From: Providencia hangzhouensis
GTDB lineage: Bacteria > Pseudomonadota > Gammaproteobacteria > Enterobacterales > Enterobacteriaceae
Assembly (NCBI RefSeq): GCF_029193595.2
Contig: NZ_CP135052.1
Coordinates: 2,604,001 to 2,668,000, forward strand
Length of the DNA stretch: 64,000 bases
Direction of reading: 5' to 3'
Shown: positions 8,444 through 28,468 of the stretch, one piece after another
How positions within the stretch are numbered: position 1 is the stretch's first letter
Layout: each line of letters starts with the position of its first letter
Notes under the pieces: generated by a model
Seen by the model: only the letters and a program-made list of their open reading frames with translations
Told to the model about the DNA's origin: nothing
Database searches by the model: none
Position numbers and translations under genes: made by a program

Positions 8444-9946
8444 CTAACAACCATGTTTCAACACAATCTCCAAATACTCGTGTTTCCAATCACCATCAGA
8501 CAGCTCATGCAAACTCACAAATCCATCGTGTTCTAGTGCACAGACACCGTTGTGCGACCTTACATAATCATAGACTGCACGGCTTTCTAGTCCTTGAATC
8601 ATGTGGGCGAGTAGCTTACGTCTCATCACATCACGACGCCACGCCTTCCACTCCTCGTTTTTTGTTTTTCGCTTTGTCGTATTGAATGGCTGCCCAGCCG
8701 CATTCACGACAGAAAGCCCATGCCTATTTTTCTTTCCTATTTTTAGATACTCGTCAATGAGTTGATTTATGCTTTCGCGTAGCTCTGTTGTCTCTAATTT
8801 CCAATGTTCCAGTATTTCTGATACATAATCGTCGGAATAGAGCTTTCGTAGCTTTTTCACCATACTTCCCTTCGCTGACAAACTAACAGAGCCAGCATTA
8901 AATATAGTACCGTAGCGGATAGTTTTAACGAGATTATCATCTACACCTAGCGTATCTTTGATAAAGTCAGTTTCTAGTACAGATAGTGAATCAGTGCTAA
9001 TCCCATATTTCTTGAATTCTTGCTCTAAGATAGCTAACTGGCAGCCTTTAATATCATAATTGTACCCGTTGGCTAAACATGCCCATTTCATCTTGCTGGG
9101 TAAATATTGAAAACCTGTACCTACCTCAAAAGAACGGCTACCCACTTTGGCGGTTTTATACGCTTGTCGATACTCAACGATTAGCGGTGTTTCACTCATC
9201 ACCTTGACACCTACCTCCATCAAATGAGAGATAAAATTAAAATAAAAGCTCTTATTTTTTGCAGTAGGATGGTCATTACAATATTCTTGTAGTTTATCAA
9301 GGTTGATCGGTAATGCTTCGAGTTGTTGATACACACCGATAATACGCTGTCTAAAATTGGCATTTTCGATGGCTCGTTTCGATGTTTTATGCTTAGGAGG
9401 CTTTACATTATAATAGCTTTTTAACATCAATTCATACAGTGTTTCGGGTTTCTTACGCTTATCAAAAATATTCGTCAAATAGGTATAGCGATCGGTGCGT
9501 TTAAGATAATCCTTTCGTTTACCGGGAAATAAGGCTTTAAGGACACTTTTAGATAAAGCAAATTCACGACATTTATGGATCCCAAAGCTATGTGGAATAA
9601 TCTTAATAATATTAGCTTGTTCTAAGCACTCTAAACCGCGCTCTAATCCTAAATCACGACTTTGCTTAAAAATCATAGGGAATTTCTCTTTCCCCAGTTC
9701 AGCGGAAAATGGCACAGAGTACGTCCATTTTTTATTTCCTTTAAACCTCGCTTTTTTCTTCGTATTTTTGCTAACCGTCGCACTACAGATAATATGCTGT
9801 AAGAACAAGCCAATTTCACTGTAATATTGAGGTTTTTGACGTTGATCGACGGTATTATCAAAGGGAACGCTCAGAACAATCGCTTTATAGGCTTCTACTG
9901 TAGCTTCTGTAACAAGAATGTTATCTTTGGTGATATATGCTGTCAT
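8444..9946 (-). CDS. Family A-type polymerase-like replication protein (500 aa)
   Basis: The protein shows in order what look like the palm and fingers motifs of the family A DNA polymerase / single-subunit RNA polymerase superfamily. Motif A is YDIKGCQLAIL at 297-307 with D298. Motif B is KTIRYGTIFNAG at 341-352, with the Lys and the YG pair. An IQGLESRAVYDYV helix at 450-462 resembles the pol I IQGTAAD segment, and motif C is ALEHDGF at 470-476. There is no exonuclease domain visible; the N-terminal ~200 residues are of unknown type. Lying just downstream of a Rep_trans-like initiator on the same strand, it is probably the replicase or primase-like protein of a mobile element. This is motif reading without a search. 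DNA versus RNA synthesis cannot be decided. Confidence 0.6.
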   Translation of the reverse strand: MTAYITKDNILVTEATVEAYKAIVLSVPFDNTVDQRQKPQYYSEIGLFLQHIICSATVSKNTKKKARFKGNKKWTYSVPFSAELGKEKFPMIFKQSRDLGLERGLECLEQANIIKIIPHSFGIHKCREFALSKSVLKALFPGKRKDYLKRTDRYTYLTNIFDKRKKPETLYELMLKSYYNVKPPKHKTSKRAIENANFRQRIIGVYQQLEALPINLDKLQEYCNDHPTAKNKSFYFNFISHLMEVGVKVMSETPLIVEYRQAYKTAKVGSRSFEVGTGFQYLPSKMKWACLANGYNYDIKGCQLAILEQEFKKYGISTDSLSVLETDFIKDTLGVDDNLVKTIRYGTIFNAGSVSLSAKGSMVKKLRKLYSDDYVSEILEHWKLETTELRESINQLIDEYLKIGKKNRHGLSVVNAAGQPFNTTKRKTKNEEWKAWRRDVMRRKLLAHMIQGLESRAVYDYVRSHNGVCALEHDGFVSLHELSDGDWKHEYLEIVLKHGC

Positions 9947-10317
9947 TTCAATTTACCATGTTGTTAATAGTAAATTGAATTACGCAAATGCATTTTTAAT
10001 GGGGTTAATCCCTAACCCCATTTTTTAGTGGGTAATTAGAAAAACCGAGAAAGCGTCAAATACCCGTGCCAGCTACTCAAAGCGATCAGTTAAGACCAAC
10101 AACTCGCGGTCTAGACGAAAATAGCTAATCCCAATATCCCCACACTATAGGCATTATATATATACGTTATTATTCATAGCCATTATGCTTATGATGCTTG
10201 CTAAACTTGATGTTATGCTGGTAACCAGCATTGATATATATATACATATATTATTATGTTGAGTCGCCACACAATACTGCCGCAGCGACCCTACACCATT
10301 ACCCGTGATACAGGCTA
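9947..10317. other. Gap between replication genes, possible origin region
   Basis: About 370 bases between the polymerase-like gene and the initiator gene with no ORF. It contains the hairpin at 9999-10026 and two alternating AT tracts (around 10154-10165 and 10233-10250), separated by short repeated words such as TTATGCT and GCTTGC. Such a structured, AT-rich, gene-free region between replication genes would suit an origin. No defined iteron array or nick site could be picked out, so this remains a suggestion. Confidence 0.3.
9999..10026 (+). terminator. Perfect hairpin followed by T run
   Basis: ATGGGGTTA, loop of five, TAACCCCAT, then a T run. It reads as an intrinsic terminator on the plus strand, yet both neighbouring genes run on the minus strand. 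It may instead stop antisense transcription or be part of an origin. Confidence 0.5.
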
Positions 10318-11385
10318 TTAATAACCGTGTTTAAGAGCCCATTTTTCACGTAAATTCTTCTGCCAAAGAGCATCATTGCCAAGAATGGCAAGGTCGTATT
10401 TCAGTATGTAAAGCTGATCCCACACCTTTTGGTGATCAATCAACTCCACATGATGTTTTTTTAACAAACGATCAAGCTTCTTCACTACTTTTTTCGGGTA
10501 TTTCTCTTTAATGTATGCCCTTATTTCTGGTAATGTCCGCACTTTATAGTCAGAAACTAACACGGCTAGTTCAGATGTCACCTTAGTGTCAATGAAGATC
10601 ACTTTTTCAAGTAAATTAGGCATATTATTCATCTTACGTAATAACAGTTTTTGTTTTTGTGGCTGGTAACGTAATTCAATGCGTAAAAATTTCGGATACT
10701 GTTCTACATCAACCAAAACATTACCGAGTTCATCAACTTCCTCTACAACATCCGATATATCCTTTCCTACATCGCATTTAGGATAGACAGAAGCATAAAT
10801 TTCAGAGTTACGACTGCCCAAATTAATACCAACCCCACCATCTGATGAATTCTTATTGACCTTACCTTTGCTTGCACTCTTTAGGTGGATAAAGTAATCA
10901 TCGATGTTAAGTCCATAAGTATCAAGTGCATAATCTATACGTGTCACCCACGCTGATTTTAAGAGCTGAAATAAATATTCGCCTAATAACGGTTCGCTAC
11001 CTAACCACATAAAGAGAGCATTAAGCTCTTTTTTACGAAAGTGTTGAGGACTGAATTCAAAGCGAAATTCTCCCCTCTTCCCCTTTCCGGTTGGATGAAA
11101 ATTGATTAACAAATACTGGTTACGGTTGCGCTTACTTCGAATGAACACTTCTGAGCGGTAGTACTTGCCCATATCGCCAGTCGAAGAACGACGTTCTACA
11201 GTATATTTAGCTGTACCGTCTATTTTCTCAATTCTTTCATCTATCAACTTCGAAATATTAGACCCGCAGGTAGAGACAATAGATAACTTATCAAATCTCG
11301 CTTTTATTAATTGTCCCATTACATTTCGACCCACTTCGCAGGAATAAGTGAGATCATCAATCCGCTTTGCCGACATACTATTCAT
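10318..11385 (-). CDS. Rep_trans-like replication initiator
   Basis: A 355-residue protein when started at ATG 11385, which has GGGGAAG seven bases upstream; a longer frame to 11439 lacks a site. It contains WVTRIDYALD in the middle and FLRIELRY further on. These match the strand segments of the Rep_trans (RCR initiator, PF02486-like) fold, in which the protein nicks the origin and starts rolling-circle replication of plasmids or excised islands. It is followed on the same strand by the polymerase-like protein and preceded by an AlpA-like regulator. Together they form a compact replication and control block of a mobile element. I did not locate the catalytic tyrosine with certainty. Confidence 0.65.
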   Translation of the reverse strand: MNSMSAKRIDDLTYSCEVGRNVMGQLIKARFDKLSIVSTCGSNISKLIDERIEKIDGTAKYTVERRSSTGDMGKYYRSEVFIRSKRNRNQYLLINFHPTGKGKRGEFRFEFSPQHFRKKELNALFMWLGSEPLLGEYLFQLLKSAWVTRIDYALDTYGLNIDDYFIHLKSASKGKVNKNSSDGGVGINLGSRNSEIYASVYPKCDVGKDISDVVEEVDELGNVLVDVEQYPKFLRIELRYQPQKQKLLLRKMNNMPNLLEKVIFIDTKVTSELAVLVSDYKVRTLPEIRAYIKEKYPKKVVKKLDRLLKKHHVELIDHQKVWDQLYILKYDLAILGNDALWQKNLREKWALKHGY

Positions 11386-14167: not shown

Positions 14168-16426
14168 ATGAAAAAACAATTAAATACAAACTATCGTCTT
14201 GTCTGGAGCGCTGTCCAAAACGCGTTGATTGCCGTCTCTGAACTAACCCATGCAAAAGGTAAGAAAACAGCGGGTATCATCGCACTTTCAGCATTATCAT
14301 CACTGGCTTCAATACCTGCCTTTGCCGATGATAGCCGTTGTGTCAATGGCACAACAGTGACCGATAATTGCACCGTTGAGGCTGGGGAAACAGTGTCAAA
14401 TATGACCGTTAAGGAAAATGGCAATTTACGAGTAAACGGTGAATCAAATAATACCGTTTTAACAGGACAGAAAAATCCAACCGGTTCAGGGGCGTCATTT
14501 GATGATGGAAGTCGGTATGATTCAGCGACAGAATGGGTTTATGGCACGGCGACGGGCACCATCATCAATGCAGGTGGGATCCAAAAGGTCGACGGTGGTA
14601 CAGCCGACCAATCAAAAGTCAATTATCACGGTGTATTAGAAGTTAACAACGGGGGCGCAATCACTAATTCAACAGTAGGCTCTAATGATGCCGTTGATGG
14701 GTTAAAAACCGATGAAGCCTATATTTCTGTTATCGGTAATGGTAGTTCAGCTAAGAACACCCATATTAACAATGGTGGCGTTCTGAGTGCGTCAGAAGGA
14801 GCTATCGTCACGGATACAACCATCAATGCCGGAGGGCGTCTAGAACTTTCAGTGGATAACGACCTCGATAACAACGAGTTTAGGACGAATGCAGGCATAA
14901 CTACAGCTAATGGTGTAACAATTAATAAAGATGGCATACTGGCGCTTGATAAGGATACAAAAGCAACCGATGTGGCCGTCAATGAAGGCGGCACCCTATG
15001 GGCTGAAAATGGCGCTATTCTTGAAAATATAACGACCGTTGGAGGAGAAACTAAAGTTCAAAATGCCACACTCACTGGTAGCAACGTCTTTAATCAGCAA
15101 GGAACATTGACCGTCTCAGGGGATGTATCTGCGGAAATCATTGAGTTGTATGATGCCAATATTCAATTTGAGGGGGCGTCTGTTTCACAAGCCTCTTATC
15201 GCCGTAACACACCAGAGTTCAATGCGGGGCATCTTACCGTGAAAGAACTGAAAGGTGAAGGTGACAATAACAACATTACTCTGCGTATAGATGCCACATC
15301 GGGAGAGCATGACACATTACAAGTGACTGACGCTATTGACGGGCATTTTAATGTCAATATTAACAGTCAAGGTAAAGAAATAAACACATCGGCGTTAGAT
15401 TCAAGTTTCATTGAAGCAAAAGGCAGTGATGCTCATACGTTCTCTGGTGATACTGATATTGGCGCTTACAACTATTCGCTTTACCAAGATGGCGATGACT
15501 GGCGGCTCCAACGCAGCGGCAATTTATCGGCATCTTCGAGCAATGCCATGATGCTCGCAAACGTCACACCAACAATTTGGGCGAGCGAATTATCCGTCTT
15601 ACGCAACCGCCTAGGCGAACTCCACGCAGATTCTGAACAAAATGGTGTGTGGCTGAAATACATAACTGCCCGTAACCGCGTTAATAATAACCAGACAAGC
15701 TACAAACAGGACATGAACGGGTTTGTCCTCGGCGGCGATCGACAGCTTGATGTAACTAATGGAAAACTGTTCCTCGGCAGTCAGTTCGGTTATTCCTACT
15801 CATCTCTTGATGCAGCAAGCAGCGACGGACAAGTCAAAAGTTACAGTTTAGGCCTCTATGCGACATGGTTACACAATAGCGGCTACTACGTCGATGGCGT
15901 ACTCAAAGGAAATCGATTCTTTAGTGAGAATAATGCACGCTTCAATCAAGGTACATCGAAAGCCAATGATGCGACCAATGGAATTGGATTCTCTCTTGAA
16001 GGAGGGAAACATATTAATATCAATACGTACCAAATTGAACCTTATGTTCAACTCGCTGGATTCCAAGGACAAAAAACACACTACACGTTTGATAATGATC
16101 TTCATGTTAATGCGAATGCAACCCGCTCTTTAAAAGCTGAGATAGGTACAACATTGGGTAAAGAATTTACACTACCTAATGGCGGTAATGCAAAACCTTA
16201 TATTCGTCTGGCGGCAAGCCAAGAGTTTATCAAAAATAATGATGTCACTATCAATAATACCGAACGCTTTACCAATGATATGTCTGGCTTAACGGGGAAA
16301 TATGGTATTGGTATGAATACAAACATTGTTAAAGATCTGGACATGTATGGTGAATTTAATTATGCCAAAGGCAACAAGCTTGAAACACCGTACAGTGGCA
16401 CTGTGGGGATAAGATACAGTTTCTAA
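14168..16426 (+). CDS. AIDA/Ag43-like autotransporter adhesin
   Basis: Self-secreted surface adhesin of 752 residues. The N-terminus is an extended signal peptide (ESPR): NYRLVWSAVQNALIAVSE, then a hydrophobic core ending near AFADD. The passenger, roughly residues 55-480, is a beta-helix type with repeated GG-turn units (INAGGIQ, VNNGGAI, INNGGVL, INAGGRL, VNEGGTL). The C-terminal ~270 residues form an autotransporter beta-barrel starting near WASELSVLRNRLGEL and ending in the outer membrane signature GIRYSF with terminal Phe. It is short compared with Ag43 (about 1000). The gene is followed by a hairpin terminator. The GATC cluster upstream suggests methylation-sensitive expression. It probably mediates aggregation or host binding. 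Confidence 0.9.
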   Translation: MKKQLNTNYRLVWSAVQNALIAVSELTHAKGKKTAGIIALSALSSLASIPAFADDSRCVNGTTVTDNCTVEAGETVSNMTVKENGNLRVNGESNNTVLTGQKNPTGSGASFDDGSRYDSATEWVYGTATGTIINAGGIQKVDGGTADQSKVNYHGVLEVNNGGAITNSTVGSNDAVDGLKTDEAYISVIGNGSSAKNTHINNGGVLSASEGAIVTDTTINAGGRLELSVDNDLDNNEFRTNAGITTANGVTINKDGILALDKDTKATDVAVNEGGTLWAENGAILENITTVGGETKVQNATLTGSNVFNQQGTLTVSGDVSAEIIELYDANIQFEGASVSQASYRRNTPEFNAGHLTVKELKGEGDNNNITLRIDATSGEHDTLQVTDAIDGHFNVNINSQGKEINTSALDSSFIEAKGSDAHTFSGDTDIGAYNYSLYQDGDDWRLQRSGNLSASSSNAMMLANVTPTIWASELSVLRNRLGELHADSEQNGVWLKYITARNRVNNNQTSYKQDMNGFVLGGDRQLDVTNGKLFLGSQFGYSYSSLDAASSDGQVKSYSLGLYATWLHNSGYYVDGVLKGNRFFSENNARFNQGTSKANDATNGIGFSLEGGKHININTYQIEPYVQLAGFQGQKTHYTFDNDLHVNANATRSLKAEIGTTLGKEFTLPNGGNAKPYIRLAASQEFIKNNDVTINNTERFTNDMSGLTGKYGIGMNTNIVKDLDMYGEFNYAKGNKLETPYSGTVGIRYSF

Positions 16427-16984: not shown

Positions 16985-17326
16985 TTATAGCAGAAAATTC
17001 ACGGTTATTCCTGCTAATATATCGAGTGCAATCACAACCAACGCCACGTAATACCAAGCACGGCGATTCGGTATTTTCACGATAAAGTAAAAACAGCAAA
17101 CATCCCAAATGAGAATCAATGCTTCCACTTTATTCAATGTCACCTTTTTAGTAATAAAAAATTCAACGATATTTAAGAATAAAATCGGTAAAAACCAAAA
17201 TAGCCAAAAGGTTTTAGCTAATCCAAAGCCACCGTTGAGCAAACGCTGTTTAAATAAAGCCGGATCATTTAATCCTTTTACTTCGTTTTCTTCTCGGATT
17301 TTTTGCAATTTATTTTTGATAGACAT
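16985..17326 (-). CDS. Small inner membrane protein
   Basis: A 113-residue protein if started at ATG 17326 (MSIKNKL), which has AAGGAACAG just upstream; the longer frame to 17410 lacks a site. A charged N-terminal ~40 residues are followed by three hydrophobic segments (LAKTFWLFWFLPILFLNIV, ALILIWDVCCFYFIV, YVALVVIALDILAGI). No known family is recognised. It probably forms an operon with the lipoprotein gene downstream, suggesting a joint envelope role. Confidence 0.6.
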   Translation of the reverse strand: MSIKNKLQKIREENEVKGLNDPALFKQRLLNGGFGLAKTFWLFWFLPILFLNIVEFFITKKVTLNKVEALILIWDVCCFYFIVKIPNRRAWYYVALVVIALDILAGITVNFLL

Positions 17327-17425
17327 GACTGTTCCTTCAATTAAATGAATTAAGTTTTTTTTTCCATGATGTTGGCGCCAGAATGGGTGCAATGCCTTAC
17401 CGATAGGCAAGGGTAAATATTTAGG

Positions 17426-17710
17426 CTATTTCAATGACCGTCCATGATTATTAGAGGGTGGCTTGTTGATGTAACGACTCGGCCATATTGTTTCAGGAAC
17501 CGTGCCAATCACATCCGCAATGATCTGTTCAGCTCTTGGGTACGCTCGCTCTAGCGCATTATTTAACGTCCGAGAAGAAAGACCATGCTCACGAGATAAT
17601 TGCGCTAGTGTGACCCCTTTTTTATGCAAAGCCGCCACAATATCCGCACGGTGCCAATCCGCAACGCTTCCTTTTCGGGGCTTTTTTTGAGATGCTACAG
17701 GGTTAGACAT
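17426..17710 (-). CDS. Ner/Nlp-like DNA-binding regulator
   Basis: A 94-residue protein started at ATG 17710, with GGAG eight bases upstream. Residues WHRADIVAALHKKGVTLAQL are followed by SREHGLSSRTLNNALERAYP and the IIADVIGTVPETIWPSRY tail. This is the full signature of the Mu Ner / SfsB (Nlp) family of lambda-repressor-like HTH proteins. In phage Mu, Ner binds between divergent promoters and shuts down early and repressor transcription. Here it is divergent from a Mu-repressor-like gene, matching the Mu arrangement, though no Mu transposition genes are seen nearby. Confidence 0.85.
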   Translation of the reverse strand: MSNPVASQKKPRKGSVADWHRADIVAALHKKGVTLAQLSREHGLSSRTLNNALERAYPRAEQIIADVIGTVPETIWPSRYINKPPSNNHGRSLK

Positions 17711-17847
17711 AGTAATAACTCCACTGTTTAATTCCTCGTCTATTAAAAACCAATTAAAGGGAATTATCAATAGATATCTTTATGATTTTAACATCTTTCT
17801 AGTGCGGTTATTTTATCCTTTTGATATATATGGGATTTATAAAAATC

Positions 17848-18264
17848 ATGACTGATAAAAAACAATTAACTGAAATGGATAATGCGCCCAAGCTCTGGTT
17901 TACCAGTGGGGAGCTAGCTGCTATAGGAAAAGAAAAAGCTGACGATCCAACACGTTACCCTGAATATAAAGAGATGGATATCCCTACCACCGCGAAAGGC
18001 GTTAGAGTCCGTCTAGAGTCAATCACAGCTCTTCATCCCCACTTTCGCAAGAAAAACCCTAATAAGCGCGGCGACCTCTATCATATTGATGCATTTAAGG
18101 TGATCCTAAACACGGATGAAAAAGAGCTCATCAAGCAAAACACACTATCTTCTGAAAGTGCAGATCTTAACCTTTTACTTGAAATCTACAAATCACTGTC
18201 AGTTGAGAAAAGAAAAGCGTTATTAAAAAATGCACTCACAATGAAACAGGAAGAATTAGATTAG
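17848..18264 (+). CDS. Mu-type HTH repressor-like protein
   Basis: Begins at ATG 17848 or an earlier ATG/TTG (17830, 17821); no start has a strong ribosome site. The N-terminal ~75 residues (LWFTSGELAAIG, then IPTTAKGVRVRLE, FRKKNPNKRGDLYHI) look like the winged Mu-type HTH found in Mu c repressor and MuA, with a short insertion. The C-terminal part ends in a helical segment with LLLEIYKSLSVEKRKALL. Divergent from the Ner-like gene, it may be the opposing repressor of a two-promoter switch. Confidence 0.65.
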   Translation: MTDKKQLTEMDNAPKLWFTSGELAAIGKEKADDPTRYPEYKEMDIPTTAKGVRVRLESITALHPHFRKKNPNKRGDLYHIDAFKVILNTDEKELIKQNTLSSESADLNLLLEIYKSLSVEKRKALLKNALTMKQEELD

Positions 18265-18325
18265 TATCTTTTAATACCTTTTGTTATTTTAATAACTGTA
18301 TTTTCGTCACTGACTCAGAGGCACT

Positions 18326-19120
18326 ATGCAGTTATCTCACCACAACACGCTAGACAGCAGCTATGACCCATTGACAGTTAAAGCTATTGATTATGTCATT
18401 CTCATTAACAGAGCCTCACCGAGACGTTTACAGCGCCATTTTCGGATAGGATTTCACCGTGCTGAGCGCATTATTTATCAACTTGAATATTTGGGTGTGG
18501 TTACGCCTTTGAATCAGTATGATTATCGTGAAGTGCAGGGATACCCAACTCACTACCAATCTTTTGATGCATCAGCCTTTGCAGCACCTATTGAGACAGC
18601 ACAGACACCGTTATTCATTGATTCACCACTAGATACGCAATCCCTAGAATACCGTTGCTTAATTCAAGCTATCGTCTGGCAGCGTATTGTGGTCTGGGTC
18701 GAAGAAATCGAGATTGAGGGCGGTACAGCCAATATCTTGAAATCTGTTTCACCGTTTGAATACCTAATTGATACGCACAGCGATGACATTTATCAGGATA
18801 CTCTTCGCAACAACGCCAGTTCTTACCGTTTTCTTGCCACACTTCGTCCTGAAACCCCATTGGATGTACTACGGCAGCATGGGCGCATTAGTTATCAACC
18901 CTGCTGGAAGCTGCCTCGAATAGCACAAGAAGAATGGCAAGGTTTATGGGTGCCAAATGAAGCAGGATGGGAAAGCCTATGTGAGGAAAATATTCATCAG
19001 CCAAGAGGGATTGGCGAGTGGCCTGATTTACCCCATAGAAGCATGAAACCGTTTGTACATGGGCTGCAAGAGGATGGTGGGGATTATTTACGGTATTTGA
19101 TTTATTGGAAGAGTCATTAG
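18326..19120 (+). CDS. Orphan FtsK-gamma winged-helix protein with unknown C-terminal domain
   Basis: A 264-residue protein. Residues about 13-63 match the FtsK gamma domain, the winged helix that reads polar KOPS motifs in the chromosome: DPLTVKAIDYVI, ASPRRLQRHFRIGFHRAERII, LEYLGVVTP. No translocase motor is attached. The remaining ~190 residues are of no recognised family and rich in aromatic residues and tryptophan. AGAGGCACT precedes the ATG. It follows the Mu-like repressor on the same strand after 61 bases. Such orphan gamma domains occur on mobile elements; binding to oriented DNA motifs to influence replication, segregation or integration is plausible but unproven. Confidence 0.7.
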   Translation: MQLSHHNTLDSSYDPLTVKAIDYVILINRASPRRLQRHFRIGFHRAERIIYQLEYLGVVTPLNQYDYREVQGYPTHYQSFDASAFAAPIETAQTPLFIDSPLDTQSLEYRCLIQAIVWQRIVVWVEEIEIEGGTANILKSVSPFEYLIDTHSDDIYQDTLRNNASSYRFLATLRPETPLDVLRQHGRISYQPCWKLPRIAQEEWQGLWVPNEAGWESLCEENIHQPRGIGEWPDLPHRSMKPFVHGLQEDGGDYLRYLIYWKSH

Positions 19121-19301
19121 TTATTATATAAGTGTAATATTTTTACAAATATGGACATACTAGAATATCCAGCCAGTGGGATATCTTAATCGAACAAGAA
19201 TACCGTAAGACTCTTCCCAATGAAAAGAAGATTTTATGTTGTATAATATATAAACATGAAATACCATTAATGTATTAATGATATAAAAGAAAGGAACTGA
19301 A

Positions 19302-20966
19302 ATGGATAATTTATTGGAATCAAATGATATTTATAAAAATTATTCGACCAACGAAGAGAGCAACACTTATAATAATGCATTAGGAACTTATAATACAGAG
19401 GATTTTACTATAAGGTTAGCTTATTTTATTCATGATAAACTAGAAAATTTAGAAACAGGAAATCTTAGTTTTTCAAACATAGATGTAGATACATTACGTG
19501 CATATTCGACTTATTTTCATGAAACAATACATTGGCGACAACATATAGGTTCAACATCAGGGTTCATTTTAAGCCTGATAATGCCCTTTCAGTACACAGC
19601 TATCGAACAATCCCTTAAAATAGTTTTAAAAGAGATCGGTCCAATAAAATCATTAAAGCAATATTATTATAATAATGTGAAGACCAACACCCCAACAGAT
19701 GAATTATTCATTAATTTGAATAATGTTTTCAATAATTTCTATGACATGCTTCATTATAAAAATCTAGTAATAAATCCAAAAATAATAACTCAGGAAATGC
19801 ATGAAGAATTCTATTTAAGTTACGGTCATGCAACAGCGTATACTTATATAAACTTACTAGACCAGCTATCTTATTTTTTCGATGATAAAGATAAATTTAA
19901 AATTAATAATAAGATTGAAAGTTTAAAAAAACTAATATCCAGCCAACAAGGATCCCCTTATGTTGAATTCAATGCATTTAAAGAAAATAATAAAGTAATC
20001 CCTCCTTTAGGGGTAAAGCAAATTTATGAAGGTCAAGCTAGATTTCTTCAGCTTCAATTATTATATTTTTCAAATAAAAACTTATTCAATATAGAATATT
20101 TTAAAGATAAAGATTTGCTATCTGGAATATATGGAGATGCATTTGAGCTTTATCTAAAAATAATTGAGCATGACTTCCCAGAAGATTTCGGTGATTCAAT
20201 CATAGCCATTTTTTTGATTGTATGTGACCTAGCAATTAACCCCTCCACCGCATTTCCATTAGAAATAGAGCATGATGATTCGTTTTTTTTTGATGCTATC
20301 CCTGGTATTAGATTTTATGATTTATGTAATGAAGTAAAAAATCTCATTAATTCAAATGAAAATATAAGTATTAAAGATTATTCGAAAGATGAATATGATA
20401 GAATAACCTCACTACTATGCGAGAATCTATGCTATCCAAAACCTAACTTTTTCCTCAACAAAATAATTAACTGGAAGAATGAGAATAAAAAAATATCTGA
20501 AATAATAGATGAGGAAATTGATTATTCTTTTAAAGATGAATTTTACCAAGTTAGATTTTTATTTTCAAAATTCATTACATTTAGTCAGGATAAGCTAAAT
20601 AGCCCTGAATTTTTTTGTTGGACTGGAGCTTGTAGTGCAGGAAAAAATGTAAATGATGAATATAGAAAATTAACAGAAAAATACAAAGCACCATTTATAA
20701 ATCAAAAAGATTTAGATGTTTATGCTGCATCAATAGACAATATCAATGAGAATAATTTAGAAAAAATGAAAGATAGTTTTACTCTAATGAATATTATCTC
20801 AAATTTAACTCGCCAATGGATAAATAATGACGGTGATTTCAAGATTGATTTCATTAAAGAGATTAATGGTAAATACTCATATGATGAATTGTATCAATCA
20901 TACAGCCTAATATTTAAAAATCACTTTGGTGTTGATTTTGAGCAATTCAAATCCCCTAATGAATAG
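19302..20966 (+). CDS. Unrecognised HExxH metallopeptidase-like protein (554 aa)
   Basis: No known family recognised. The protein carries a zinc-peptidase motif HETIH at residues 73-77 inside STYFHETIHWRQH, and a later YEGQARFLQLQ with E243, which could be the third metal ligand in the EGxAR style. It is hydrophilic, without signal peptide or membrane segments, and very rich in Asn, Lys and Ile. Base composition is more AT-rich than the surroundings, a sign of transfer. AAGGAA precedes the ATG. It ends toward the nuclease-like gene at 21105-22439, with a shared bidirectional terminator between them. A cytoplasmic protease in a defence setting would be consistent, but the role is unknown. Confidence 0.6.
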   Translation: MDNLLESNDIYKNYSTNEESNTYNNALGTYNTEDFTIRLAYFIHDKLENLETGNLSFSNIDVDTLRAYSTYFHETIHWRQHIGSTSGFILSLIMPFQYTAIEQSLKIVLKEIGPIKSLKQYYYNNVKTNTPTDELFINLNNVFNNFYDMLHYKNLVINPKIITQEMHEEFYLSYGHATAYTYINLLDQLSYFFDDKDKFKINNKIESLKKLISSQQGSPYVEFNAFKENNKVIPPLGVKQIYEGQARFLQLQLLYFSNKNLFNIEYFKDKDLLSGIYGDAFELYLKIIEHDFPEDFGDSIIAIFLIVCDLAINPSTAFPLEIEHDDSFFFDAIPGIRFYDLCNEVKNLINSNENISIKDYSKDEYDRITSLLCENLCYPKPNFFLNKIINWKNENKKISEIIDEEIDYSFKDEFYQVRFLFSKFITFSQDKLNSPEFFCWTGACSAGKNVNDEYRKLTEKYKAPFINQKDLDVYAASIDNINENNLEKMKDSFTLMNIISNLTRQWINNDGDFKIDFIKEINGKYSYDELYQSYSLIFKNHFGVDFEQFKSPNE

Positions 20967-21003
20967 CACCAATAAATTCATTTTTCATTACAAAAAATAA
21001 AAA

Positions 21004-21025
21004 AATGACCGTTTAGTCGGTCATT
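21004..21025. terminator. Bidirectional terminator between convergent genes
   Basis: AATGACCG, loop of six, CGGTCATT, with A runs on the left and T/A on the right, located between two converging genes. Confidence 0.7.
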
Positions 21026-21104
21026 AAATAAAACGCTATTTCATATAACGATTTATTTATATTTTTTAAACTTAACCCTAACAATTTAAATTTACAATCG
21101 ATAA

Positions 21105-22439
21105 CTAAATAATATTAGCCTCTTCAGCTGAATCTAGCATCACTTTAATTAATGAAACTGCTCTCTGACCATGAAATAATACCCTTAAAAAAAAACCATC
21201 CATTATTGCAAACTCTGCTTTAGCATTACCAATGAAAATTACTTCTCCTTTATATTTAAAAGGCTTGTTACTTGTATTATCTAGACGTCCCCTTTCTTTT
21301 TTAGTTGCAAATCTTACCTGTAATCCTTCTTTTCTACACTCGTTGATTAGTCCATCAATAGATATCCCCATACAGACATGCTTTCGGCCAAATAAAATAT
21401 CAAATTTATATTTGTCCGGTATGCAACGACTAAATATAGGTAAAGCAAGTGGTATTTTCATACAATCTAATAAACTAACCCTAGGACAATCTGATGAGCC
21501 ACCGCAACCGTCAAACCAAAGATTAAATGCTATATGCCCCCCCTTCCGCATATGCTCGGATGAGTAGATCCCCAAAAATAAACAATTATCTATTACATCA
21601 ATAACGTAACTTTCTTCATCTGATTTTTCTAATGCGCTTTCAAGCCGATCATCCCATGTGGTTATCTCAAAGAATTGTTCTGGTATATATATTTTATCTT
21701 GAGTATCTGGATCTACACCTATACCTGTTGAAAGAACTTTAGAAACATGTGACATTCTACTTGCTTGTCTAAACATTCTTTGAAGCTGCTTCAGAGCGTT
21801 AGTACCTTCTTTTTTAGTGAAGTAAAATAAAGATCTGTCGCAACGTGAGCTAATATAAAAGTTCATGAATTCTCCTATTTTAGAATTCATTTCTCCTTCT
21901 TTAACTTCACATAACCTGATACCTTTCTCAGGCTCAAACATTAATAAATCGCCAACTTGAATGAATGATGTTAGATCTGATATTAATGGTACTAAATCAG
22001 GTTTATCTTTACGCAGCTCTTTCACAGCAAAAACAACAGAATCAAAATTGCAATTATATAGATCAGGCTGCTTTACAGCCTTAAAAAATCTTCTTCCATA
22101 ACATAGTTGTTGACCTAATAACTGCCAAGCAATTGCGTCAGCAATCCCTCGGAGCAAAAGCTCTTGTGGGTAATCAATCTTATCACTACCTTGAATAATG
22201 GAAATAATACAATCTTGTGCTTCGTTCATGCCTTTATTAGCTGAAGCATAGAAATCTTTTTTTAACTGCAAATCATGAATTAAATCATCGACATTTGTGA
22301 TTTTATCCCAAAGCTGACTAGACCCCCTACAAGCTTTATCATACAAATCCTGTATTAACTCCTCATATTCTAACGGAAATATTTGTTGCTTTAATGTTTC
22401 AACTACATCATATTTAGATTTGTATCTTTTCTTACCCAT
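21105..22439 (-). CDS. Unrecognised protein with PD-(D/E)XK nuclease-like motif (444 aa)
   Basis: Started at ATG 22439 (MGKKRYKSK), which has AGGAAGGG immediately upstream; a longer frame to 22469 is less likely. The centre contains QVGDLLMF (D164) and, fourteen residues later, LCEVKEGE (E178, K180). This is the D…ExK spacing and beta-hairpin pattern of restriction-like nucleases. A preceding helix ELLLRGIADAIAWQLL could carry the early acidic residue. No signal peptide is present. The C-terminal ~200 residues are of unknown type. Convergent to the HExxH protein and next to integrase debris, it is a candidate effector of an undescribed defence or element-competition system. Restriction activity is inference from the motif alone. 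Confidence 0.55.
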   Translation of the reverse strand: MGKKRYKSKYDVVETLKQQIFPLEYEELIQDLYDKACRGSSQLWDKITNVDDLIHDLQLKKDFYASANKGMNEAQDCIISIIQGSDKIDYPQELLLRGIADAIAWQLLGQQLCYGRRFFKAVKQPDLYNCNFDSVVFAVKELRKDKPDLVPLISDLTSFIQVGDLLMFEPEKGIRLCEVKEGEMNSKIGEFMNFYISSRCDRSLFYFTKKEGTNALKQLQRMFRQASRMSHVSKVLSTGIGVDPDTQDKIYIPEQFFEITTWDDRLESALEKSDEESYVIDVIDNCLFLGIYSSEHMRKGGHIAFNLWFDGCGGSSDCPRVSLLDCMKIPLALPIFSRCIPDKYKFDILFGRKHVCMGISIDGLINECRKEGLQVRFATKKERGRLDNTSNKPFKYKGEVIFIGNAKAEFAIMDGFFLRVLFHGQRAVSLIKVMLDSAEEANII

Positions 22440-22684
22440 CAAATTTCCCTTCCTATCAATAACCAACAATTATTCCTTTATGTAGGATAAAGGAACAAGG
22501 TGCTTTTAACCATAACCTAAATTAACGTTCTTATTTTCACTGTCTTATTATTATAGTTATATGTTTAGTTGTACGTTTTAAACGTGTCCACTTAATACAG
22601 GTAGGATCAATAGAATTATACTTAGCACTTGTATTTAAATGGGTACTCCGGTAATCCCCCCATATGATCCGCCCACCTCTGCAA

Positions 22685-23155
22685 TCACACCTTGCATTCA
22701 CTCTCATAACCACATAAATCATACGTTCCTTCGATACCACTACGTGAATGCCCAAGTATCGCCTCCCCCACTTCATTAGGGCAACCTAATTTAGCCAACC
22801 CAGTACGTACTGTTCGACGTAAATCATGAGGTGACCAATCAGGGATATCTAGCATCTTGCCTTCTTTGCGTAAACGTCACGCACATTCTGTTAGATATTT
22901 TTGTTGAATCGGCAACTTGGTTACTTGAGATGGGAAAAGATATTTATCGGAGTTCATGCGCATTGATTTCAAGTAGGTGACTGCTTGCTCGGGTAATTGC
23001 ACATATCGTTCAATTCCTGTCTTGGTTTCTTTCAAATGAATAGTTCCTTTTTCAAGATCCACATCATCCCAAGCCATTGCGCACACTTCACCAGTTCGGC
23101 AGCTTGTCCAAAGCGTCAGACGAAAAGCATTGACTGGTAATATCCGTATCAATAG
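22685..23155 (-). pseudogene. Broken tyrosine integrase with in-frame stop
   Basis: Reading on the minus strand, FRLTLWTSCRTGEVCAMAWDDVD (Arg I box) runs to KYLTECA and a TGA at 22877-22879. The same frame then resumes as RLRKEGKMLD and continues with SPHDLRRTVRTGLAKLG (HxxR), AILGHS and GTYDLCGYE to a stop at 22685. So it is an integrase C-terminal half with a single nonsense codon, probably CGA to TGA. The N-terminal half is missing beyond about 23150, where unrelated repeat sequence begins. It marks the right end of the 1-23 kb accessory block. Confidence 0.85.
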
Positions 23156-23512: not shown

Positions 23513-24359
23513 CCTGTTATATCATAAAAACTCACTATTGGTTCTCCTTCTCTTTCTAAATAAATAGAATCTAGCTTACTTTCATAACAATTTGAATTTA
23601 CAGGCTAACAAAGCCAAGTTAAAAAATATCAGACTAATGACCGCCCTAAGTCATATCTTAAAATAAAACATTATGGTAAAAAACGACACATATCCGTACT
23701 TGTTTACTACTCTGCAGTAACTCTCTTACTAGATATAAAGTAAGCTAGAAGAGCCCGTAACAAAAAATTTAAGCAGATAGAACCCTATAGTGTCTCGGCT
23801 ATGGAGGTATAAATATTTAGATAAGTAAGGCTATTGATGTAATGATAAGAAGCCACACATCATCTCTGCTAGCTACTATAATGATTTAATTGTATTTTTT
23901 TGTAGATTTTTACTCCAAATGAGAGTATTAATTAATCACTTGATTTTACTGTCTTTTTTCTAAAGTCTTTCGTTTTTCAAATTACATAATCACTCCTTAT
24001 GTGTGTGTTTTTGATTGAAATCAAGTTATTTTGTTACAATCTAAGAGGATTTATTAAAATTTGTTAATTTCAGATAAAAATACTTTTTTTTATGTCAAAC
24101 CAAGCCTAATAAACTAACAAGCTAACTTCTAAATTTGATTTTAAAAAAATTGTTAAAAACTTTAAATGTTTATAACTTATTGTTAGATAAGAAAAACAAC
24201 TGAATTGTAAAAAGTGTAAATATAGCCAATTAAATAGACTCTATTCTTTTTCGTGGTTTGATTTAAAAAATACTACTCATTATAATTGTAAGCACTTAAA
24301 GGGAATATATAAGAGCACAACAAATTATAAATTATTAAACTGAGACCTTGTTATTAATT
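23513..24359. other. Long gene-free region upstream of fimbrial operon
   Basis: About 850 very AT-rich bases with no supported ORF. It must contain the promoter for the MrpJ-like gene and fimbrial operon. I looked for a pair of inverted repeats that would indicate a MrpI-type invertible promoter and did not find a convincing one. Confidence 0.5.
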
Positions 24360-24698
24360 ATGAGTAAAGTTAATAGAGTCATATCCAAATATGAAACACA
24401 AGATAATCTATTTTCTATTTACTGTGGATTAGTTATAAGAAAAATACGTAAAGAGAATGGTATTTCTGCTTGTGAACTAGCAAAACAAGTAAATGTTTCA
24501 CAGCAACAAATGTCACGTTATGAACGTGGAATAAATAAAATTAGTATTGATATGTTATTTAATTTAAGCGTAGCACTCGATTGTCCATTTGAAAGAGTCA
24601 TTAAGCTTATTATTGCTGAAGTTCAAAAATCCCCTTCGGATGATGTAATTTCTTTAAAAAATAAGATATCAGCATCTGATACAATTTATTTTTATTAG
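24360..24698 (+). CDS. MrpJ-like XRE family fimbria/motility regulator
   Basis: A 112-residue protein with an XRE helix-turn-helix: IRKIRKENGISACELAKQV, then NVSQQQMSRYERGINKIS. The SQQQMSRYERG recognition segment is the hallmark of MrpJ and its paralogues in Proteus and Providencia, which repress flagellar genes when fimbriae are made. In Proteus mrp, the mrpJ gene is the last of the operon; here the gene comes first, 93 bases before the main pilin. ATG 24360 was chosen over a TTG at 24348; neither has a strong ribosome site. It probably couples fimbrial expression with repression of motility. Confidence 0.8.
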   Translation: MSKVNRVISKYETQDNLFSIYCGLVIRKIRKENGISACELAKQVNVSQQQMSRYERGINKISIDMLFNLSVALDCPFERVIKLIIAEVQKSPSDDVISLKNKISASDTIYFY

Positions 24699-24791
24699 TC
24701 CATTTAAATATATTTTATTTAAATATTTTTTTATTAAAAAAATGCATATAAATATTTATATGTATATCTATACTTATCGTTTGAGGAAAAA

Positions 24792-25325
24792 ATGAAAAAA
24801 ATTATTTTAGCAACTATGATTTCTGGTTTAATGAGTACATCTGCTTTAGCTGTTGATGCAGGGAGTGGAACGGTAACATTTTCTGGTTCTATTATTGAAG
24901 CGCCATGCTCTATTGCTCCTGGTGAAGAGAATCAAGAAGTTCCATTAGGCCAAGTATCTAATGTGACTTTAGATAACGGTGGTGAATCATCAGCACAACC
25001 ATTTCAGATTAAATTAGAAGGCTGTAACCTAAAAGGTGATAATCAAGTTGCGGTAACTTTCAAGGGAACTGAAGCGGGGAAAGATACAGGTTATTTACAG
25101 ATTACAGGTGATGCTACTGGTGCCGCAGTGAAGATCATGAATTCATCGGGTACTCAAATTAAAGTTAACTCTGGCGCAAAACAAAATTATGTTGAAGGGA
25201 ATAACACATTAAAATTCCAAGCATCATTAATTGGACTTCAGTTAGTTGATGCGCAAAGCAAAGTTATTCCAGTAACACCAGGGAAATTCCAAGCAGTTAC
25301 TAATTTTACATTAGCATATAATTAA
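24792..25325 (+). CDS. Major fimbrial subunit (PapA/MrpA-like)
   Basis: A 177-residue pilin exported by Sec and assembled by the chaperone-usher path. It has a signal peptide ending TSALAVDA; a mature N-terminal extension (SGTVTFSGSIIEAPCSI) which serves as donor strand, with the first Cys of the conserved disulfide; and the second Cys in KLEGCNL. The C-terminal beta-zipper strand is KFQAVTNFTLAYN with the penultimate Tyr. AGGAAAAA stands before ATG. As the first structural gene followed by a hairpin, it is expected to be the most abundant product. Confidence 0.92.
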   Translation: MKKIILATMISGLMSTSALAVDAGSGTVTFSGSIIEAPCSIAPGEENQEVPLGQVSNVTLDNGGESSAQPFQIKLEGCNLKGDNQVAVTFKGTEAGKDTGYLQITGDATGAAVKIMNSSGTQIKVNSGAKQNYVEGNNTLKFQASLIGLQLVDAQSKVIPVTPGKFQAVTNFTLAYN

Positions 25326-25349
25326 ATAAATTTTTATAAGATGCTATCT

Positions 25350-25377
25350 CACCACGGGGTTGATAGACCTCGTGGTG
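25350..25377 (+). terminator. Intercistronic hairpin after the major pilin
   Basis: CACCACGGGGT pairs with ACCTCGTGGTG around TGATAG. There is no T run, so it more likely protects the pilin mRNA end or attenuates downstream expression than fully stops transcription. Confidence 0.55.
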
Positions 25378-25397
25378 TATATTTTAATGGTTATAAT

Positions 25398-25928
25398 ATG
25401 ATAACAAAGAAAAAAGAAGTTATTTTATCATTGTGTTTTTTTTTACTATTACCCTTTTTTAAAAATGCTTCTGCAAATAACTCAATGGATCTGATAATAC
25501 AAGGTAGCATTATGGATACGGCATGTAGTATTGATACTGGTTCTTATGAACAATCCATTGACATGGGAATTTTACCACTATCATTAATACAGCAAAAAGG
25601 ACAAGGACAAGCACATGATTTTTTTATTACATTAATTGGTTGCAAACTAACATCTTATACAGGTGAACCATGGAAAACATTTGAAGTTTCATTTGATGGG
25701 CCTGTTAATGGGGATTTTTTTTCAGTATCGGGGTCAGCACAAGGTATAGCACTATTATTAACTGATTCGAAAGGCGTACATATTTACCCAGGAAAAAAAA
25801 CACTACCGAACGATATAAAAGCTGGGAAATATATTTTGAATTATCAGTTAAAAGTTATTTCAGATAAAACACCTTTACGTGCTGGGCAGTATCAAACATC
25901 ACTGCGTTTTAAACTAGATTATTACTAA
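25398..25928 (+). CDS. Minor fimbrial subunit
   Basis: A 176-residue pilin started at ATG 25398 (MITKKKEVILS); an earlier TTG/ATG frame runs through the hairpin and is unlikely. Signal peptide up to NASANN. Pilin disulfide Cys pair in DTACSID and LIGCKL. C-terminal strand GQYQTSLRFKLDYY. It lies between the major pilin and usher, the position of PapH/MrpB-like terminators that anchor the fimbria, which is the most likely role. Confidence 0.85.
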   Translation: MITKKKEVILSLCFFLLLPFFKNASANNSMDLIIQGSIMDTACSIDTGSYEQSIDMGILPLSLIQQKGQGQAHDFFITLIGCKLTSYTGEPWKTFEVSFDGPVNGDFFSVSGSAQGIALLLTDSKGVHIYPGKKTLPNDIKAGKYILNYQLKVISDKTPLRAGQYQTSLRFKLDYY

Positions 25929-25966
25929 ATAATAAATAAATTATTGTTAGATTTTAGGAATGTTTT

Positions 25967-28468
25967 ATGTCTTCGTTACCTATTTATACACCAAAATTAA
26001 AATGGTTAAGTATTCTTATTGGATTAACAATCAGTTGTGTGACTTTAACTATCAATGCAGATAATCATATTGAATTCAATACTGATGTTTTAGATTTAGA
26101 AGACAAAAATAACATTGATTTAAACCAATTCTCTCGTGCGGGTTATATTATGCCCGGAGTTTATAACTTTACGCTAAAAATCAATAACGAACAAATATCT
26201 GACATTAGCATCCCCTATTATTCTGGTGAGTATGATCCTGATAATAGTCAGCCTTGTTTATCTCCAGAAATAGTTAAGCTACTCGGGCTTACTTCTGAGT
26301 CGCAAAAAAAATTAACATGGTGGCATGAAGGGCAATGCCTTAATGAAAACAGCTTGCCAGGATTATTGCTGCGCGGTGATTTAGCTACGTCATCTCTATA
26401 TGTCAGTATTCCACAAGCGTACCTAGAGTACACATCAGAAAACTGGGATCCCCCTTCTCGCTGGGACAATGGAATATCAGCATTACTTATTGATTATAAT
26501 GTGAATGCTAATGCCACTAATTCCTATAATGGAGGAGCAAATTCATCCTCAGTAAATAGTAATGGTGTTGCAGGTATCAATTTAGGTGCTTGGCGGTTTA
26601 GAGCTGATTGGCAAAGCCGCTATAACCATACAACAGGAAGCCAAGGACGTGACCAATCTGATTTCACATGGAACCGTTTTTATGCATACCGAGCTCTATC
26701 TGAATTAAAGGCTAAACTCGTACTGGGTGAAGACTATTTGGTTTCAAATATTTTTGATGGCTTTAGATTTATTGGTGCAAGCTTGCAATCTGAATTAAGC
26801 ATGATGCCACCAAACTTGCGAGGATATGCCCCTGAAATAACAGGGATAGCACAAAGTAATGCTACAGTGACGGTCATGCAACAAGGACGGATACTGTATG
26901 AAACACAAGTTGCGCCGGGTCCCTTTCGTATCCAAAATTTAAGTGATGCCATAACAGGAACTTTAAATGTTGCCATTAAAGAGCAAGATGGTTCAATTCA
27001 AGAGTTTCAAGTTGATACCGCAAATTTGCCATATTTAACAAGACCTGGGCAAGTTCAATATAAATTTGCGCTCGGCCAGCCAACGAATACCGAGCGCCAA
27101 AGTGAAGGGGAAAATTTCATTACAGGTGAATTTTCTTGGGGTATTAGTAATGGTTGGTCTTTAATTGGCGGTAGTTTGAATAGCCAAAATTATAATGCGC
27201 TATCAATGGGATTTGGACGGGATTTACTCGCATTTGGTGCACTTTCATTTGATGTTACTCAGTCTATCGCCCGTTTATCCGGTGAAGGGACATTAAGTGG
27301 GAGCTCATACCGAGTTAACTATTCTAAACGATTTGAAGAGTTCGATAGCCAGATACAATTTGCAGGTTATCGTTTTTCAGAACGAAGTTATATGAGCATG
27401 AGTGATTTCTTAAATACCCAACGAACAGGGCTACGCAATTATGGAAGCAAAGAGCTATACACTATATCTGTAAATAAGAATTTCCAGGATATAGGGTTAT
27501 CATTATATTTAAATTATAACCATCAGACGTATTGGGATAAAAAAGATAATGATTATTACAGTTTAATGCTATCGAAATATATGGATATCGGTCCAATAAA
27601 AAATATGAGTATTAGCTTATCTGCAAATCGTAGTTTTTATAACGGTGTGACCGATGATAGCGCTTATGTATCATTATCTTTCCCACTAAGTAATGGGGCA
27701 AATGTTGGTTATTCGATGAATACAAGCCGCTATGATACGACTAATCGTGTTTCTTATTATGACCGATTGGATGATAGAACAAATTATCAGGTAAGTGCAG
27801 GTGCAAATCGAAAAGGAGGAACCGCAAGTGCTTTTATTTCACATCAAGGGGACAATGCTCGTTGGTCAGCCAATGCGAATCATATAAATAACCAATATAG
27901 TGCTTTTGGCCTTTCCACTTCAGGTGGCTTGACCTTAACAGGAAAAGGTACGGTTGCACATAGAATAAATAATCTCGGGGGAGCACGTATATTAGTTGAT
28001 ACTGATGATGTTCCAAATATTACGATTCGTGGTATTGGTGTTCCTGTTGAATCAAACCGATTTGGGAAAGCAGTTATTTCAGATGTCAGTAGCTACTATC
28101 GAAATAAAGCGCAAATTGATTTAAATAAGCTACCTGATGATATTGATGCCCAACAATCTGTTATTCAAGCAACATTAACTGAAGGTGCTGTTGGATACCG
28201 TTCATTTTCGGTTATTTCAGGTCAGAAAATTATGGCTGTTATCGTACTTACTGATGGTACTCATCCACCATTAGGAGCTCAAGTAACAAATCATAAAAAG
28301 CAAAACGTAGGGATTGTAGGTGATTTAGGTAATACTTATATAAGCGGTGTTCATCCTTCAGAAATAATGAATGTCACATGGGGTAAAAATATGTCATGTG
28401 AAATAATTTTTCCCTCTGAATTAATGAATCAAGAAATTCAAGACAATTTATTACTTCCTTGTAACTAG
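25967..28468 (+). CDS. Outer membrane fimbrial usher (PapC/FimD family)
   Basis: An 833-residue usher, the pore through which subunits are assembled. A signal peptide ends near INADNHIEF. The N-terminal domain has the paired CLSPEIVKLLGL and GQCLN cysteines. The barrel region contains GFRFIGASLQSELSMMPPNLRGYAPEI, the classic usher signature around the plug, and TVMQQGRILYETQVAPGPFRI. The C-terminal domain ends in a Cys pair (SCEI…LPCN). Length is normal for the family. The gene is tightly spaced between the minor pilin and the chaperone. Confidence 0.93.
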   Translation: MSSLPIYTPKLKWLSILIGLTISCVTLTINADNHIEFNTDVLDLEDKNNIDLNQFSRAGYIMPGVYNFTLKINNEQISDISIPYYSGEYDPDNSQPCLSPEIVKLLGLTSESQKKLTWWHEGQCLNENSLPGLLLRGDLATSSLYVSIPQAYLEYTSENWDPPSRWDNGISALLIDYNVNANATNSYNGGANSSSVNSNGVAGINLGAWRFRADWQSRYNHTTGSQGRDQSDFTWNRFYAYRALSELKAKLVLGEDYLVSNIFDGFRFIGASLQSELSMMPPNLRGYAPEITGIAQSNATVTVMQQGRILYETQVAPGPFRIQNLSDAITGTLNVAIKEQDGSIQEFQVDTANLPYLTRPGQVQYKFALGQPTNTERQSEGENFITGEFSWGISNGWSLIGGSLNSQNYNALSMGFGRDLLAFGALSFDVTQSIARLSGEGTLSGSSYRVNYSKRFEEFDSQIQFAGYRFSERSYMSMSDFLNTQRTGLRNYGSKELYTISVNKNFQDIGLSLYLNYNHQTYWDKKDNDYYSLMLSKYMDIGPIKNMSISLSANRSFYNGVTDDSAYVSLSFPLSNGANVGYSMNTSRYDTTNRVSYYDRLDDRTNYQVSAGANRKGGTASAFISHQGDNARWSANANHINNQYSAFGLSTSGGLTLTGKGTVAHRINNLGGARILVDTDDVPNITIRGIGVPVESNRFGKAVISDVSSYYRNKAQIDLNKLPDDIDAQQSVIQATLTEGAVGYRSFSVISGQKIMAVIVLTDGTHPPLGAQVTNHKKQNVGIVGDLGNTYISGVHPSEIMNVTWGKNMSCEIIFPSELMNQEIQDNLLLPCN

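Follow-up and report, generated by a model that had tools for sequence, protein, structure and literature searches.

The locus described here raises the question of what two long proteins of no recognised family are doing end to end in a small slot of the Providencia hangzhouensis genome, and whether they do it together. Their genes lie in a stretch of 64,000 nucleotides (contig NZ_CP135052.1 of assembly GCF_029193595.2, positions 2,604,001 to 2,668,000 of the forward strand), which is called the window below, and are listed in Table 1. Protein 1 has an HExxH motif with a distant glutamate and protein 2 has a D and an ExK in a nuclease-like arrangement; a first-pass annotation had read them as a protease-nuclease pair of the kind known from phage defence. 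Our analysis points to another answer. The two genes are the entire cargo of a slot that holds defence genes in four of five sister loci, and they are probably two independent, stand-alone defence genes, one coding for a gluzincin-like peptidase and the other for a PD-(D/E)XK-like nuclease, this being the function that we infer for them. We favor defence because the slot carries defence genes in the sisters, because some relatives of the two proteins adjoin Abi or other defence genes or sit on phage or plasmid elements, and because both families occur patchily; the idea of a pair fails because homologues of each family are found apart.

The slot was delimited by comparison within the genus. 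When 23 further genomes from the genus were searched, 5 had the left flank, from about 17000 to 19116, nearly whole at 93-95% identity, and at all five of these sister loci the similarity ends at 19110-19116 and different genes follow. The cargo in the window is thus 19117-22657 (3.5 kb), and blastn found nothing of it in the fetched stretches of the five sister loci. The sisters carry a DRT4 reverse transcriptase (L178; E 1.7e-194), type I restriction M, S and R genes with PDC-S02 (L180), restriction-system ORFs (open reading frames) whose lengths and starts equal those of L180 (L181; judged by its ORFs), a PDC-S51 protein (L177), and VgrG with a PLD-domain protein (L179). Cargo therefore matches defence models in four of the five sisters, L181 being counted by its likeness to L180, and the defence setting that the first-pass annotation had suggested is supported independently by this hotspot cargo and by the neighbors of relatives described below. 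That annotation had also called the island integrase-bounded, which is true of the right edge, where a decayed integrase lies, but not of the left, which is a point of divergence with no integrase. The stretch 22658-23131 of the remnant is 92.4% identical to part of a 428-aa ORF of L178, and 22659-23131 is 87.5% identical to part of a 426-aa ORF of L179; the protein that follows the integrase ORF in these two sisters is presumably MutS. An integrase of the L178/L179 type was absent from the fetched stretches of the other three sisters, and no convincing attachment repeats were found around the slot.

Both ORFs are present in the window, and so are all the residues that had been singled out in them, E243 included. 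Among 5.8 billion proteins searched, at least 75 are relatives of protein 1, a lower bound because scoring was confined to the 7994 candidates with the most words in common. Protein 1 and 67 of the 75 matches were aligned in 68 rows, fragments and some near-duplicates being left out, and H73, E74, H77 and E243, that is, an HExxH motif and a downstream glutamate, are invariant in 68 of 68. The predicted fold has a mean predicted local distance difference test (pLDDT) score of 90.1 and is nearly all helix with few short strands; in this model H73 and H77 share helix 62-83 and E243 sits on helix 238-257. Could protein 1 be a helical metal enzyme that is not a peptidase? The almost entirely helical model is an argument for this, ordinary zincins being unlike such a model, and so are two further invariant residues, N140 and N144. 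However, the divergent copies on two Pantoea elements retain H73, E74, H77 and E243 whereas H81 changes in them and D148 changes in one, and among the 50 VIA matches listed for protein 1 the sole peptidases are M1 zinc aminopeptidases, whose aligned ranges would, by arithmetic, fit E243 as the third zinc ligand. We therefore regard a non-peptidase as rather unlikely and prefer a gluzincin-like peptidase.

Two named peptidase families were tried for protein 1 and rejected. For family M1 the Pfam scan was empty, hhalign against 30 M1 proteins gave probabilities of 0.2-0.5%, and 165 residues separate H77 from E243 where the M1 spacing is HExxH-x18-E. For Lit (Peptidase_U49) Pfam was again empty, the best BLASTP match (E 0.11) lay off the motif, and hhalign gave 0.3%; the Lit model had no match in 369 genomes of the class, a result that is uninformative because 14 controls were silent too.

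For protein 2 the same 5.8 billion proteins yielded 175 relatives. The alignment of protein 2 with 80 of 120 listed relatives, from which fragments and some near-duplicates were omitted, has 81 rows, and D164, E178 and K180, which form a D plus (D/E)xK motif, are invariant in all of them. These residues are also kept in 11 of 11 sequences of a wider set, 7 of which are at 21-26% identity. In the predicted fold (pLDDT 92.9) D164 lies just before one strand and E178-x-K180 just after the next, and the order of elements (helix 132-145, strands 150-153, 165-169 and 173-177, helix 183-198) fits that of the PD-(D/E)XK core; fold searches gave no match. A basic helix (R221, Q225, R228) and the C-terminal part are conserved as well. 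Since the motif residues are invariant in both families, they behave like active sites and not like chance motifs; invariance in the alignments and in divergent relatives, together with confident folds, thus bears out the first-pass view of both residue sets. One nuclease relative, from Mucilaginibacter (L114:589-2604), is 671 aa long with a far longer N-terminus, and its start codon may be wrong; the start of this protein we take to resemble a gamma-glutamylcyclotransferase-like domain.

That neither protein belongs to a known family, as had been noted from the sequence, was confirmed with four libraries: Pfam, NCBIfam, PADLOC and PHROGs gave no credible match to either, only weak rows at E 0.008-0.2. 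In PADLOC-DB 2.0.0 protein 1, the one member of family 1 that was scanned, had a single weak GajB row (E 0.008) and protein 2 had none; for the 81 aligned members of family 2 no PADLOC model matched more than one member at E 0.1. Scans against PHROG, PDB sequences and, member by member, Pfam gave scattered weak rows, the best at 4.6e-4 with a family matching 2 of 81 members, and the best PDB sequence for the family-1 alignment profile was a designed helix bundle (0.051). Structure searches with both proteins found nothing significant, viral models being compared with protein 2 alone. Neither family was recognisable in the titles and abstract openings searched; as few subscription journals were covered, the families may still have been described in print. 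No paper was linked to six protein accessions taken from relatives or a neighbor.

The claim that the two proteins form a pair has to be given up, because homologues occur separately and with different partners, an outcome that the first-pass annotation itself had foreseen as fatal to it. If there were one protease-nuclease defence system, the peptidase would activate or control the nuclease, and two facts are in keeping with this: the genes are adjacent in the window, and other defence systems have nuclease-protease pairs (PMC12799240). However, family 2 was near none of the 85 other family-1 loci, which are the best 80 of 100 genome relatives plus 5 on viral contigs and have flanks of at least 3 kb on both sides in 57 cases and at least 9 kb in 42. 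Conversely, family 1 was absent around 12 further loci that carry family 2 or a distant relative of it; among the 12, L105 and L114 span only about 4 kb. A distant family-2 relative was present in just one of 49 whole genomes carrying family 1, on a separate contig, and a separate check found family 2 in none of seven family-1 genomes, five of them among the 49; these collections hold one genome per species, and a rare co-occurrence could escape such counts. A DNA search of 5426 E. coli genomes gave 17 that carry family 1 but none with family 2; one E. coli record in the plasmid collection has a distant family-2 relative. Nor does family 1 have a constant operon partner, no ORF cluster from 91 loci exceeding 6 loci. 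The arrangement of the genes also speaks against a joint system: the ORF coordinates confirm that they converge end to end, and a hairpin lies in between. In the published pairs an MBL-fold nuclease stands upstream of a trypsin-like protease domain. A two-gene system was therefore rejected, conserved co-occurrence being absent across the 85 and 12 loci, the 49 genomes and E. coli, and a single system is in our judgement highly improbable. As to the terminator which the two genes were thought to share, the hairpin is there, but its T-run is on the minus strand only, so that the description is right in part.

We return to the two stand-alone genes and to where family 1 is found. From 162 eligible proteins flanking family 1 the nearest 150 were scanned, and they matched 310 PADLOC models at 1e-6, led by GajB at 4.3e-216. 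A comparison set of 149 proteins, drawn from 161 eligible ones in 32 fixed regions of family-1 genomes, matched 20 models, with 9.7e-40 as its best value. The tally counts models, many of them near-duplicates, and overstates the number of proteins, any one model matching at most 6 of the 150. Pfam domains of the neighbors include AbiJ_NTD5, type I specificity, DUF3800 and YfbU, the last in 4 of the 150 scanned neighbors, and ordinary metabolic genes occur among them too. Among 295 genomes of the bacterial family only that of the window has family 1. Eight plasmid records with family 1 were found and 3 of these were opened; on a Mesorhizobium plasmid it lies near ubiquitin-like and RES/Xre genes. 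In E. coli, 16 of the 17 matches span most of the query and the seventeenth is a 547-aa protein; one copy adjoins ygbA on an integrase-bearing island. The copies of protein 1 at about 9001-10651 of the E. coli records L106, L107 and L108 are annotated as 439 aa and end early, with DNA likeness continuing beyond the ORF. At L079 two ORFs, 606-1694 and 2161-3225, both match the peptidase family, which indicates a broken or doubled copy.

Some of these settings would also suit cargo for another kind of conflict, namely, rivalry among mobile elements, maintenance of a plasmid or element, or antagonism linked to type VI secretion. On the two Pantoea elements family 1 lies between PAAR and capsid genes with one hypothetical gene on each side, the E. 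coli copies occupy integrative elements, three records of which are conjugation-related, and the slot of sister L179 has the VgrG and PLD-domain proteins. Yet no PAAR- or VgrG-type ORF is seen in the slot of the window, where the two long ORFs are those of proteins 1 and 2, the cargo of the sisters matches defence models in the proportion given above, and Abi-type partners stand beside some family-2 relatives. Such a role is unlikely in our opinion, although we give it some weight, and phage defence remains the preferred function of both genes.

Family 2 was found in the genome of the window only among the 369 genomes of the class, in 1 of 398 Pseudomonas genomes, and in none of 37 Aeromonas genomes, the last being a weak result because that set held no genome known to match. 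Twelve plasmid records with family 2 were found and 6 were opened. Neither family matched any of 50,697 phage records, a sign that they are not common on sequenced phages. Closer relatives of protein 2 were viewed at five loci; the Pseudomonas copy is 31 bases behind a DUF2971 gene and the other four are on IMG/VR viral contigs. By phage gene order we take L089 to be Mu-like and L091 to be P2-like. Among seven loci with distant relatives, four have an AbiH-like or Abi gene 16-89 bases ahead of the relative and three do not; Pfam was used to check the Abi partner at two loci and gave AbiH in one and Abi_2 in the other. The Abi partner of one nuclease subfamily may be interchangeable. The loci where a relative immediately follows a gene of AbiH-like, Abi or DUF2971 type are L100:5577-8041, L110:4640-7041, L101:5566-8032, L111:4671-7143 and L105:555-2844.

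Composition sets both genes apart from the rest of the window, as had been claimed. The ORF script kept 34 ORFs of 200 aa or more in these 64 kb, and among them the gene for protein 1 has the lowest GC content (27.2%) and that for protein 2 the sixth lowest (33.8%), compared with 38.4% in the remaining window. By inspection of the sequence alone neither protein has a signal peptide. To the left of the slot, 14168-16426 codes for what looks like a large autotransporter-like protein, and to the right of the integrase remnant, at 24348-28468, an HTH (helix-turn-helix) regulator appears to be followed by a fimbrial operon with subunits and usher. In the DRT4-bearing slot a 456-aa ORF, L178:7241-8611 on the minus strand, has no Pfam or PADLOC match at 1e-5 and is a further candidate.

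Table 1. Features in and around the slot (window coordinates)
Feature	Coordinates	Strand	Details
Protein 1 ORF	19302-20966	+	554 aa; HETIH 73-77, YEGQAR 242-247
Protein 2 ORF	21105-22439	-	444 aa from ATG; D164, E178, K180
Hairpin followed by T-run, terminator-like for the nuclease gene	21004-21025	-	-11.1 kcal/mol, z -4.35
FtsK-gamma-domain gene, last conserved gene left of the slot	18326-19120	+	PF09397, E 1.1e-13
Tyrosine integrase remnant, right edge	22658-23152 (listed ORF 22877-23152)	-	PF00589, E 5.3e-12 for 22877-23152

We propose that 19117-22657 represents one of the alternative cargoes of a defence hotspot associated with an integrase. Protein 1 would be a cytosolic metal-dependent peptidase with zinc on H73, H77 and E243 and water activated by E74, its two metal-binding helices being joined by some 165 residues of helical structure; most likely it would be kept inactive until a phage product switches on cleavage of a host or phage protein, as in Lit. 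Protein 2 would be a Mg-dependent nuclease that attacks phage nucleic acid by means of D164, E178 and K180. What was observed are the genes, their invariant residues, the confident models, the hotspot, the neighbors and the absence of co-occurrence; for both proteins we infer that they bind metal, are catalytic and act against phages, and so too their trigger and substrate. A bolder proposal, which we put forward tentatively and consider to have somewhat less than an even chance, is that protein 1 represents a new family of near-all-helical, phage-triggered zinc peptidases, distributed from Proteobacteria to Bacteroidota and Bacillota, with the gluzincin halves joined by a 165-residue sensor or lock insert, and that protein 2 represents a new prophage-borne family of PD-(D/E)XK defence nucleases, acting alone or with an Abi partner. 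Because both families now have defined residues of catalytic type, confidently predicted folds and a genomic context, one-gene plating tests are direct. To our knowledge few phage-triggered peptidases are known beyond Lit and the caspase or trypsin systems; a new helical zincin, if true, would add an effector type. The slot beside the FtsK-gamma gene is also a place to seek more unknown defence genes.

How do these genes compare with known systems? Lit, from the E. coli K-12 prophage e14, is like protein 1 a stand-alone HExxH protein on a mobile element, but it has 297 residues, protein 1 has 554, and neither BLASTP nor hhalign relates the two; Lit can be activated by a peptide of the T4 capsid protein and cleaves EF-Tu (PMC9712102). 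Protein 2 resembles PD-(D/E)XK nucleases in its invariant D-x13-E-x-K beside neighboring strands and in a helix further along whose Q and R are conserved, and differs from them in having no credible Pfam, PDB-sequence or fold match. The pairs of Hachiman, AVAST, Lamassu and canu join an MBL-fold nuclease to a co-occurring trypsin-like or caspase-family protease (PMC12799240); in the window, too, a candidate nuclease and a candidate protease are neighbors, but the genes carry other motifs and do not co-occur. Finally, defence hotspots of phages and satellites are slots of about 1-5 kb that adjoin conserved genes and in which the turnover of defence genes is high (PMC9122126). The slot described here is likewise small, next to conserved genes and variable in its defence cargo; it differs from them in that its host is a bacterial genome of 4.6 Mb, where an FtsK-gamma gene and an integrase remnant flank it.
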